Notes under the pieces: generated by a model
Databases searched by the model: none
What the model saw: only the letters and a program-made list of their open reading frames with translations
Told to the model about the DNA's origin: nothing
Program-made: the position numbers and the translations under genes
Source of the DNA: an uncultured Bacteroidales bacterium
Lineage (GTDB): Bacteria > Bacteroidota > Bacteroidia > Bacteroidales > FEN-979
NCBI GenBank assembly: GCA_903903985.1
Contig: CAIVAT010000022.1
Span: 1 to 64,000 of the forward strand
Reading direction: 5' to 3'
DNA: 64,000 nucleotides
Shown: piece by piece, positions 25,415-28,470 of the stretch
How the letters are laid out: the number at the start of each line of letters is the position of its first letter
Numbering within the stretch: position 1 is the first letter of the stretch

Positions 25415-25918
25415 ATGAAACATAAAATCCTGAAACCAGTTCTGATAGCATTTGCCGTCATTGCAACTTTCAGCGCCGGTTTTGCTTTCAGTAAAATTTT
25501 ACCGGCTTCATCCGGAAAGCCTGCCATGAAAAAAGTCACAGGCATCGGCGGGATCTTTTTCAAATGCAAAGACCCCCGGAAATTGAAAGAGTGGTATTCC
25601 AAAAACCTGGGATTTCAAACAGATGCTTACGGGACCAAATTTGAATGGCGGCAGGGAACAGACACTACCAATACAGGGGTTACCCAATGGAGCCCTTTCA
25701 AGGAAACGACAAAGTACTTCGAGCCATCCACAAAGGATTTCATGATCAATTACCGGGTGGAAAACCTGCAGGCCCTTGTCGAACAGTTAAAGGCAGACAA
25801 GGTGATCATCCTCGACACCATTGAATCCTATGATTACGGTAAGTTCATTCACATCCTTGACATCGAGGGGAATAAAATCGAACTCTGGGAACCCATCGAT
25901 GTTGCGTTGGCAAAATAG
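25415..25918 (+). CDS. VOC (glyoxalase/bleomycin resistance-like) family protein with N-terminal signal/anchor
   Basis: TGIGGIFFKCKDPRKLKEWYSKNLGFQTDAYGTKFEWR...FIHILDIEGNKIELWEP. Confidence 0.85.
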   Translation: MKHKILKPVLIAFAVIATFSAGFAFSKILPASSGKPAMKKVTGIGGIFFKCKDPRKLKEWYSKNLGFQTDAYGTKFEWRQGTDTTNTGVTQWSPFKETTKYFEPSTKDFMINYRVENLQALVEQLKADKVIILDTIESYDYGKFIHILDIEGNKIELWEPIDVALAK

Positions 25919-26214
25919 CCGGCGGGGTGACCAAATAAAAAGGTCGGTTGTGTTTATGGGGTTATTGGTAACCAATAATTATTTATTACACGAAGGACCA
26001 CAGAGAAATCATGGAGGGCCACAGCGTATGAATTTGGGGGGGGGACTGGCGCATAATCCATATTGGTCATCTTAAAAAGTGTTTTTCTTGCCACTATGTA
26101 ATCCATTGTATTTCAGCTTAAATCATAAAATAAACCCACCCAATTCACGATCCCATTTTTTATGAACTGTTCTTTCTGACAGAAAAACTTAAAAAGCTTC
26201 GGTATACTATCATT

Positions 26215-26253
26215 CTGTTACTCTGTCACCCTGTTACTCTGTCACCCTGTTAC
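26215..26253. repeat. 16-bp tandem repeat, about 2.4 copies
   Basis: CTGTTACTCTGTCACC CTGTTACTCTGTCACC CTGTTAC. Confidence 0.8.
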
Positions 26254-26363
26254 AGTTTTCAATGTCACAGCACCCCGAAGGATTAACACTTATCAAAAGC
26301 ACCCTTTCTGGAATTTTAGCACTTAATTATTATAATAAATTTACATGCATATTAAATATTTTG

Positions 26364-26371
26364 TATTTTTG
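26364..26371 (+). promoter_or_regulatory. Putative -7 box of the cysE-cysK leader transcript
   Basis: TATTTTTG matches TAnnTTTG; TTTA at 26340-26343 is a plausible -33 element; leader ORF 1 starts about 20 nt downstream. Confidence 0.6.
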
Positions 26372-26390
26372 CCGTTCAGGAATTGAACAA

Positions 26391-26462
26391 ATGCAACCAA
26401 TGGCTCTGACAATATTTAATGCCGCAACCAGCAACTTGATCTGTTGTTGCATTCGCATTTAG
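26391..26462 (+). CDS. Cys-rich leader peptide 1 (MQPMALTIFNAATSNLICCCIRI)
   Basis: Short ORF with three consecutive Cys codons (26442-26450) near its end, directly followed by alternative hairpins. Confidence 0.75.
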   Translation: MQPMALTIFNAATSNLICCCIRI

Positions 26463-26465
26463 TTG

Positions 26466-26512
26466 TCGGAGAGTTTTTTACATATATATTTATTAAACAG
26501 CCAGCTCTCCGA
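26466..26512 (+). promoter_or_regulatory. Antiterminator hairpin 1
   Basis: TCGGAGAG (26466-26473) is perfectly complementary to CTCTCCGA (26505-26512); mutually exclusive with terminator 1. Confidence 0.7.
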
Positions 26513-26531
26513 AACCGGGGAGTTTTTTTTT
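26505..26531 (+). terminator. Attenuator terminator 1
   Basis: CTCTCCG AAAC CGGGGAG (one G-U pair) followed by T9. Confidence 0.8.
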
Positions 26532-26543
26532 AATTTTTTTAAA

Positions 26544-26645
26544 ATGTCCATTCACACAGATTTCAACAGTCCTACCCATCACATCAGTGTTTGTTGCTGT
26601 TGCTGTTGCCTTAGGCGGAAGGGTTTTGTATTTCTGGTTTTATAA
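26544..26645 (+). CDS. Cys-rich leader peptide 2 (MSIHTDFNSPTHHISVCCCCCCLRRKGFVFLVL)
   Basis: 33-aa ORF with six consecutive Cys codons (26592-26609); followed by a second pair of alternative hairpins. Confidence 0.8.
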   Translation: MSIHTDFNSPTHHISVCCCCCCLRRKGFVFLVL

Positions 26646-26684
26646 GTTAGAACGACAGAAAACATTATAAAAAGCCCTTTTGCT
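26614..26684 (+). promoter_or_regulatory. Antiterminator hairpin 2
   Basis: GGCGGAAGGGTTTT (26614-26627) pairs with AAAAGCCCTTTTGCT (26670-26684), 14 bp including G-U pairs, with one bulged G; overlaps the 5' arm of terminator 2. Confidence 0.65.
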
Positions 26685-26703
26685 AAAACAAAAGGGCTTT
26701 TTT
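26671..26703 (+). terminator. Attenuator terminator 2
   Basis: AAAGCCCTTTTG CTAAAA CAAAAGGGCTTT, then TTT; perfect 12-bp stem just before cysE. Confidence 0.88.
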
Positions 26704-26724
26704 CATTTTCAAACAGACAAAAAT

Positions 26725-27540
26725 ATGACACATCCGATTTTTGAAAACAATGCTGAATTTTCAGGGATATCCTTTGACAGGGATCATCTGGGCCACTGGG
26801 CCGATGAAATGTTTCAATGGCTTTTTTGCAGCCACCCGAGGTATGCCCGTGAGGAGATATTTCTTCAAAAGGAAGCTGAATTATTAAAGGAATTGTCGCA
26901 CTTCATCGAACAAACACAATCCTTTGCTGAAAATGCCGGTAATGCTGCCAGGGCTTTTTTTTCAAGGCTTCCTGATATTCATCAATTGCTGAAAAGCGAC
27001 CTGGAGACCATGTTCAATTCCGACCCGGCTGCAAAGTCGATCAGGGAAGTCCTGCTGGCATATCCCGGCTTTTATGCCATATCGGTCCACCGGATTGCAC
27101 ATGAATTATGGAATAACAACATCCCGGTCATCCCCCGGTTGTTATCGGAATATGCTCATTGTAAAACCGGTATCGACATTCACCCGGCTGCCTCGATAGG
27201 CGAACGGTTCCTGATCGACCACGGCACTGGGGTAGTGATCGGTGAAACCTGCAACATAGGGAATGATGTAAAAATCTACCAGGGAGTTACCCTGGGAGCC
27301 CTCAGCGTAAGCAGGGACCACGCTGCCATTAAAAGGCATCCGACGATCGGCAACGGGGTTGTCGTTTATGCAAACGCCACAATTTTAGGAGGGAACACCG
27401 TCATTGGCGACGGTTCAGTGATCGGTGGAAATGTTTGGATAACCCAATCGATACCGCAGGATTCACTGGTTTTTCATAAGAGCGAGATCATCATAAAAAA
27501 CAATTCTAATTTTCCTGAACCATTAAATTTCATCATTTAA
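26725..27540 (+). CDS. cysE: Serine O-acetyltransferase (EpsC/CysE type)
   Basis: Left-handed beta-helix signature: GIDIHPAASIGERFLIDHGTGVVIGETCNIGNDVKIYQGVTLGALS...HPTIGNGVVVYANATILGGNTVIGDGSVIGGNVWIT. Track start 26680 lies inside terminator 2; 26725 ATG is preferred. Confidence 0.93.
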   Translation: MTHPIFENNAEFSGISFDRDHLGHWADEMFQWLFCSHPRYAREEIFLQKEAELLKELSHFIEQTQSFAENAGNAARAFFSRLPDIHQLLKSDLETMFNSDPAAKSIREVLLAYPGFYAISVHRIAHELWNNNIPVIPRLLSEYAHCKTGIDIHPAASIGERFLIDHGTGVVIGETCNIGNDVKIYQGVTLGALSVSRDHAAIKRHPTIGNGVVVYANATILGGNTVIGDGSVIGGNVWITQSIPQDSLVFHKSEIIIKNNSNFPEPLNFII

Positions 27541-27555
27541 CTAATACTGTCAATC

Positions 27556-28470
27556 ATGAAAGCAAACAACATTTTGGAAACCATCGGGAACACCCCGCAT
27601 GTAAGGATCAACAAACTTTTCGGCCAATCGCATGAAGTGTGGATCAAACTGGAAAGAAACAATCCGGGCAACAGCATCAAGGACCGGATCGCATTGGCCA
27701 TGATTGAAGATGCCGAGCGAAAAGGATTGCTTACCTCCGGCAGCATCATCATTGAACCAACTTCCGGGAACACGGGCATCGGCCTGGCATTGGTGGCTGC
27801 GGTAAAGGGCTATAAAATTATCCTGGTCATGCCCGATTCGATGAGCATTGAACGACGAAAACTCATGTCGGTCTTCGGTGCAGAATTTGAACTGACCCCC
27901 AGGGAAAAAGGCATGAAAGGCGCCATTGAAAGGGCAACGGAACTGGCCCTGGCGACTCCCGGGTCGTGGATGCCACAGCAGTTCAACAACCAGGCAAACG
28001 TGGAGGTACATCAGCGGACAACGGCACAGGAGATCCTGAATGATTTTCCCGGAGGCCTGGATTATCTCATTACGGGCGTCGGAACCGGGGGGCATATTAC
28101 CGGTGTTGCTGAAATACTGAAATCCAAATTTAAAAACCTGAAAGTGTTTGCAGTGGAACCGCAGCTTTCACCGGTTTTAAGCGGGGGCACCCCCGGGCCG
28201 CACCCGTTGCAGGGTATTGGCGCCGGTTTTGTTCCCCGGATTTATAACGGGGAACTAATTGATGGAATTATTACCGTCGGAAAGGAGGAAGCATTTGAAT
28301 ATGCCCGGCAGATCGCCCTGCAGGAGGGAATTTTCGGAGGAATTTCGACGGGAGCTTCTCTTGCTGCGATAGCAAAAAAGATCCCGGAGATTTCAATGGG
28401 TTCAAAAATACTCACCTTTAATTATGACACAGGAGAAAGGTACTTGTCGGTAGAGGGGCTCTTCGTATAA
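27556..28470 (+). CDS. cysK: Cysteine synthase (O-acetylserine sulfhydrylase)
   Basis: [20 protein letters not shown]-lysine [42 protein letters not shown]. Confidence 0.93.

Follow-up and report, generated by a model that had tools for sequence, protein, structure and literature searches.

How does a member of the Bacteroidota match the making of cysteine to its supply? The question is raised by a 64,000-nucleotide (nt) stretch of an uncultured Bacteroidales bacterium (GTDB lineage FEN-979; GenBank assembly GCA_903903985.1, contig CAIVAT010000022.1, positions 1 to 64,000 of the forward strand), hereafter the window, in which the cysteine biosynthesis genes cysE and cysK are preceded by a promoter box and two consecutive modules, each consisting of a short leader open reading frame (ORF) with a run of cysteine (Cys) codons followed by a terminator. 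We consider it very probable that these modules form a tandem transcription attenuator of the ribosome-mediated kind, through which the charging of Cys-tRNA is sensed and cysE-cysK are controlled. An initial annotation, made from the letters of the DNA, had described the promoter box, the two leaders with three and six Cys codons and the terminators as a classical attenuation layout. All of these elements were found at the coordinates and with the codon counts given there, and the analysis presented here supports the leader peptides, the Cys runs, the exclusive hairpins and the correspondence of codon and pathway alike.

The presence of the modules (Table 1) exceeds what chance would give. No other Cys-run module with a terminator occurs on the + strand of the window, and the - strand holds one weak match. 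A search of the bacterium's own genome with a four-Cys-codon pattern returned 88 places and, among the 30 examined as loci, a module at the cysE site only, and no Cys-run module with a terminator was present in 148 kb from 23 further loci of the bacterium's family. Both terminators carry U-tracts. The product of cysE matched NCBIfam TIGR01172 (E 1.7e-54, under the curated cut-off) and NF041874 (EpsC; E 9e-47, over the cut-off). We also searched this genome, an assembly ∼87% complete, for hisG and did not find it, possibly reflecting histidine auxotrophy or a gap; histidine attenuation in this genome therefore gives no information on Cys attenuation.

Table 1. Features of the cysE-cysK leader and operon, in window coordinates.
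Feature	Position	Strand	Basis or detail
Promoter box TAnnTTTG (-7 type), TATTTTTG	26364..26371	+	Read from sequence
Leader ORF 1, MQPMALTIFNAATSNLICCCIRI then stop; C-terminus LICCCIRI	26391..26462	+	Three Cys codons at 26442-26450
Antiterminator 1, 5' arm CGGAGAGU	26467..26474	+	Begins 5 nt beyond leader 1 stop codon
Terminator 1 hairpin AGCTCTCCG-AAAC-CGGGGAGTT, then T-tract to ~26531	26503..26524	+	Folding
Terminator 1, 5' arm, common to antiterminator 1	26504-26511	+	Folding
Leader ORF 2, MSIHTDFNSPTHHISVCCCCCCLRRKGFVFLVL then stop; C-terminal part SVCCCCCCLRRKGFVFLVL	26544..26645	+	Six Cys codons at 26592-26609
Antiterminator 2, 5' arm GGCGGAAGGGUUUUGU, within leader ORF 2	26614..26629	+	Folding
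Terminator 2 hairpin AAAAAGCCCTTTTG-CTAAAA-CAAAAGGGCTTTTT; 5' arm common to antiterminator 2	26669..26702	+	Folding
cysE, serine O-acetyltransferase, ATG at 26725	26725..27540	+	NCBIfam profiles
cysK, cysteine synthase A	27556..28470	+	NCBIfam TIGR01139, E 4e-120, over cut-off

Folding agrees with the proposal that each module can adopt two mutually exclusive hairpins, in that the 5' arm of each terminator pairs alternatively with the segment that follows the Cys codons. For module 1, the local minimum free energy is -14.0 kcal/mol for the antiterminator (folded without the terminator 3' arm) versus -12.9 kcal/mol for the terminator, and the antiterminator pairing has a z score of -4.54 relative to shuffled sequences. 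The corresponding energies for module 2 are -25.0 (with a folding z score of -5.3) and -18.3 kcal/mol; the antiterminator 2 duplex has a z score of -3.65 and, for its own arm, is the best among 53 leaders. We also placed a ribosome footprint at successive codons and folded the RNA at the stage at which the shared arm has been made and the terminator 3' arm has not. With the ribosome on a Cys codon, antiterminator 1 formed with a probability of 0.96-1.0, falling to 0.0 with the ribosome on the stop codon. Antiterminator 2 formed with a probability of 0.73-0.76 while the ribosome was on any of the first five Cys codons, 0.52 when it was on the sixth and 0.0 when it was on the arm itself. In both modules the antiterminator arm starts 22-23 nt beyond the first Cys codon, and the geometry of a ribosome-mediated attenuator is fully present in module 1 and present in module 2 while the ribosome covers the arm. 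The two modules differ in design: the leader of module 1 ends just before the arm, and the arm of module 2 lies inside the ORF, where it is masked in passing.

Leaders homologous to that of the window precede cysE-cysK at four comparison loci (L003, L004, L005, and L006) and align with the window over module 1, and a cysK homologue lies immediately 3' of cysE in nearly all loci from L003 to L045. The peptides encoded by these leader 1 homologues end in MMCCSWCI (L003), MMCCNCCI (L004), MLCCSCCI (L005), and MCCTVYV (L006), and the spacing from the promoter box to the leader ATG is 26-27 nt in all four and in the window. Across these five species module 1 retains its Cys run, its stop codon and three complementary arms, with 95% of cells paired in antiterminator 1 and 100% in terminator 1, compared to 32-68% when the partners are slid. 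Equivalents of leader 2 were found in L004 (MWMCCCCCCML), L006 (CMCCCLCL), L007 (AVCCCPF), and L114 (AWCCCIS), the same four loci in which terminator 2 could be aligned. L004 and L006 thus carry both modules, L007 and L114 a module-2-like element only and L008 neither, while L003 and L005 have module 1 plus a second strong terminator directly behind terminator 1, without leader 2. We considered a relay for the latter two, in which the freed 3' arm of terminator 1 would block terminator 2, and rejected it, since shuffled sequences equaled the pairing in 111/200 and 44/200 cases.

In a CysE tree, the window, L003-L008, and L114 form one clade (100/99), and the tandem members flank its deepest, weakly supported split, so that by parsimony the tandem was probably ancestral in this eight-member clade and later lost in some lineages. 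An examination of the family of L114 for further tandem relatives returned just the two loci already known. Separately, we note that the cysE type of the window is patchy in its occurrence, being found in 5/19 genomes of its genus and 2/19 of the family of L114, and that its clade groups with the CysE of Flavobacterium, which together suggest that operon and leader may have been transferred horizontally.

These distributions bear on whether module 2 works alone, with module 1 left over from, or terminating, a small RNA or an independent short gene and the tandem functionally meaningless. L007 and L114, which carry just the module-2-like element, fit this explanation, as do the Flavobacterium relatives, which mostly have a single module near cysE with the arm, as in module 2, within the leader ORF. 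It would not, however, account for the conservation of module 1 in five species, in its distance from the box as well as in its Cys run, stop codon and three arms, nor for its strong cognate pairing (z scores of -3.2 to -4.5), and L003 and L005, having kept module 1 and lost leader 2, are the opposite of what it predicts. We consider it unlikely.

To place the tandem in a wider context, we assembled a set of 229 different cysE upstream regions, taken both from named genomes and from draws at the level of order, genus, and phylum. The main detector required a short ORF in which a stretch of seven residues included three or more Cys, with an intrinsic terminator after it, and its background was measured on antisense strands and dinucleotide shuffles. 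Such modules were found in 46/229 regions in the sense direction, none in antisense and ∼0.7 in shuffled sequences, a proportion that is no estimate of prevalence in the phylum, as sampling followed CysE similarity; with the terminator not required, the counts were 72, 6, and 12. In a tighter window Cys was the commonest repeated residue (42 sense versus 0 antisense), followed by Leu (27 versus 10). A relaxed detector recovered 51 loci with a module, of which five were called tandem (antisense, 2 and 0; shuffles, 3 and 0), and the promoter box lies upstream of an in-frame leader ATG in 26 of these 51. One automatic tandem call, L114, was a false positive, and L037 was missed by the detector and added by eye. 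The tandem carriers are thus the window, L004, L006, Flavobacterium endophyticum (L033), and F. akiainvivens (L037), and a second complete module is therefore also present outside the clade of the window, in two Flavobacterium species.

The strong evidence on whether the alternative pairing is selected comes from the wider sample. Across 56 modules, the best pairing of the post-Cys segment with the terminator 5' arm had a mean z score of -2.68 relative to shuffled segments, with 79% of modules under -1.64. The distance from the first Cys codon to the start of the antiterminator arm is mostly 18-37 nt, a spacing at which the arm would stay accessible beyond a ribosome halted at the beginning of the run. 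Terminators of different clades are very unlike in sequence, and the post-Cys segment changes along with them: when leaders were swapped, arms paired with their own leaders at -14.3 kcal/mol versus -10.1 kcal/mol with others, a difference of ∼11 permutation standard deviations matched by 0/20,000 permutations (p <= 5e-5, an optimistic value, as related sequences are not independent). The initial annotation had proposed a comparison of homologous leaders for conserved Cys runs and covarying stems. Cys runs, arms and arm distance proved to be conserved and arms to prefer their own leaders; for the stems, the strong evidence is that of pairing in the wider phylum, and compensatory change within the tandem clade is thin. 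The same results make it very improbable that the Cys-rich peptides act themselves, for instance as metal- or redox-binding microproteins, with the hairpins being ordinary gene terminators. Cys clusters can bind metals, as is generally known, but outside the Cys cluster the peptides of different clades mostly have little in common, and peptide function predicts neither the conserved distance from codon to arm nor the RNA pairing.

Several results weigh against a tandem attenuator as we describe it. In the tandem clade, compensatory changes amount to one two-sided pair in terminator 1 and none in antiterminator 1; there is too little variation here for covariation to be a strong test. In L003 and L005 we looked for an antiterminator to match the second terminator and found none. 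The arm of module 2 is exposed again when the ribosome reaches the stop codon, with an antiterminator probability of 0.67, and the off-state of this module therefore depends on timing. Once the complete terminator has been transcribed, equilibrium folding favors the terminator in every ribosome state, so that the decision would have to be kinetic. Finally, an Rfam scan of positions 25900-27600 found no family at gathering score, T-box and SAM (S-adenosylmethionine) elements included, with the best matches being terminator-like and attributable to chance, although a match to known attenuator families is not to be expected for leaders of this type that are unrelated to them. This last result also counts against a tRNA- or metabolite-binding riboswitch that contains short ORFs incidentally. 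Elements of the T-box and SAM types do govern cysteine and methionine genes in Firmicutes (PMC1262725 and its references), but a riboswitch would leave the long runs of Cys codons unexplained, and we give this explanation hardly any credence.

Under the attenuation model that we favor, transcription would begin shortly before leader 1. If charged Cys-tRNA runs short, a ribosome would stall on the Cys codons and leave the post-Cys segment free to pair with the terminator 5' arm as an antiterminator, and RNA polymerase would go on. With Cys plentiful, the ribosome on leader 1 would reach the stop codon and cover the arm, whereas on leader 2 it would cover the arm while translating through it; in either case the terminator would form and transcription would end. 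A polymerase that had passed terminator 1 would then encounter a second, independently translated Cys leader with its own terminator. As polymerase has to get past both terminators, the basal read-through expected is that of one module multiplied by that of the other, and the response should be steeper. We infer that the purpose of the tandem would be tighter and steeper control. The two modules may plausibly be a leaky one and a sharp one placed one after the other. The initial annotation had suggested a "graded or AND-type" output, of which the requirement for read-through at both terminators in series stands, and distinct thresholds or signals find no support here; both modules read Cys codons. 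The finding of single modules is more firmly based and of wider reach than that of the tandem, which is real and conserved at the level of sequence.

In other families of Bacteroidota the survey also revealed cysE leaders of a second class (L216, L221, L222, L224, L230, L234-L236, L239, L246, and L248), in which the Cys run is at or near the C terminus of the peptide and an intrinsic terminator is lacking. In L234 and L235 the Cys codons are able to pair with bases adjoining the cysE start codon, which suggests that terminator-less leaders may act by translational control. These loci, together with mycobacterial cys leaders that lack conserved terminators (PMC1262725), give some substance to the alternative that the window itself is under translational or Rho control, in which stalled ribosomes would protect or expose the start region of cysE, as proposed for mycobacterial polycysteine leaders. 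The window, however, has two intrinsic terminators with U-tracts and antiterminators to match, and we regard this alternative as quite improbable there.

Two further features of the surveyed leaders deserve mention. Within the leaders of module-bearing loci, Met is ∼3-fold enriched near the Cys run (11.4% within 3 residues versus 3.9% elsewhere; Fisher p 2e-5), and Trp occurs at 3.6% versus 0.6% (for example, CNMCCMMW in Flavobacterium); joint sensing of sulfur amino acids is a possible reading of the Met enrichment. In addition, a TAGACTA-like element lies ∼20-30 nt upstream of the TAnnTTTG box in the Flavobacterium cysE promoters of L012, L016, L017, L021, and L022 and is possibly the site of a regulator.

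One or two such switches are present in relatives throughout the phylum, and this is apparently a widespread and undescribed means by which Bacteroidota match cysteine production to supply. More tentatively, and with rather less than even confidence, we propose a phylum-wide and repeatedly remodeled family of cysE Cys attenuators with single, tandem and terminator-less (perhaps translational) members, in which the tandem would multiply a trp-like by a his-like Cys decision to combine low leakage with a sharp response, and Met enrichment may add joint sensing of sulfur amino acids. The Bacteroidota are among the dominant phyla in gut, soil, and water. In the main texts of the open-access literature that we searched, neither a cysteine RNA switch nor a Cys attenuator of cysE is described for this phylum, and no description was found of two serial attenuators that answer to one amino acid. 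Our survey indicates that such a cysteine switch is common and supplies specific, easily cultured Flavobacterium species as test hosts.

Leader-peptide attenuation was suggested for Flavobacterium psychrophilum, a member of the same phylum, from structured 5' regions before amino acid biosynthesis operons, in a study that, in its main text, mentions neither cysE nor cysteine nor any tandem (PMC9723704). Short ORFs have been suggested in long 5' regions of B. thetaiotaomicron (PMC7366714), and the main text of a broad terminator survey makes no mention of Bacteroidetes (PMC2965389). In Actinobacteria, polycysteine leader ORFs without conserved terminators precede the cys operons of Mycobacterium and Propionibacterium and cbs in Bifidobacterium (PMC1262725), and those of mycobacteria are reported on experimental grounds as cysteine-responsive attenuators (Canestrari et al. 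2020, as cited in PMC13236596). They resemble the leaders of the window in being short ORFs with a Cys run before cysteine genes but differ in that they are leaderless, have the run near the stop codon and lack conserved terminator hairpins, and so are closer to the terminator-less class of Bacteroidota. Ribosome-mediated attenuation with Cys codons and an intrinsic terminator has been predicted for uORFC-8-2, a motif with an upstream ORF before cysS in Rhodobacterales (PMC8632094); compared by description, it differs in its gene (which encodes Cys-tRNA synthetase), its phylum, its two Cys codons, and its single module.

The leader of Salmonella mgtCBR also has two short ORFs in series that act as attenuators, but these sense ATP and proline and are additive and independent (PMC3641672), whereas both modules of the window read Cys and each has its own intrinsic terminator. 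A close analogy is with the trp and his attenuators of Enterobacteria, in which terminator and antiterminator likewise share one arm and the position of the ribosome decides between them; the window differs in its amino acid (Cys), its genes (cysE-cysK), its Bacteroidota host, and its two full modules in series. Module 1 is trp-like, with three Cys codons and a stop codon adjoining the arm, while module 2, with six, is nearer to his in codon number. The model of Elf and Ehrenberg deals with the differences in sensitivity and basal level between designs of this sort (PMC1183508), and the tandem is a natural experiment on serial attenuators for one amino acid, about which attenuator-sensitivity theory can make numerical predictions.
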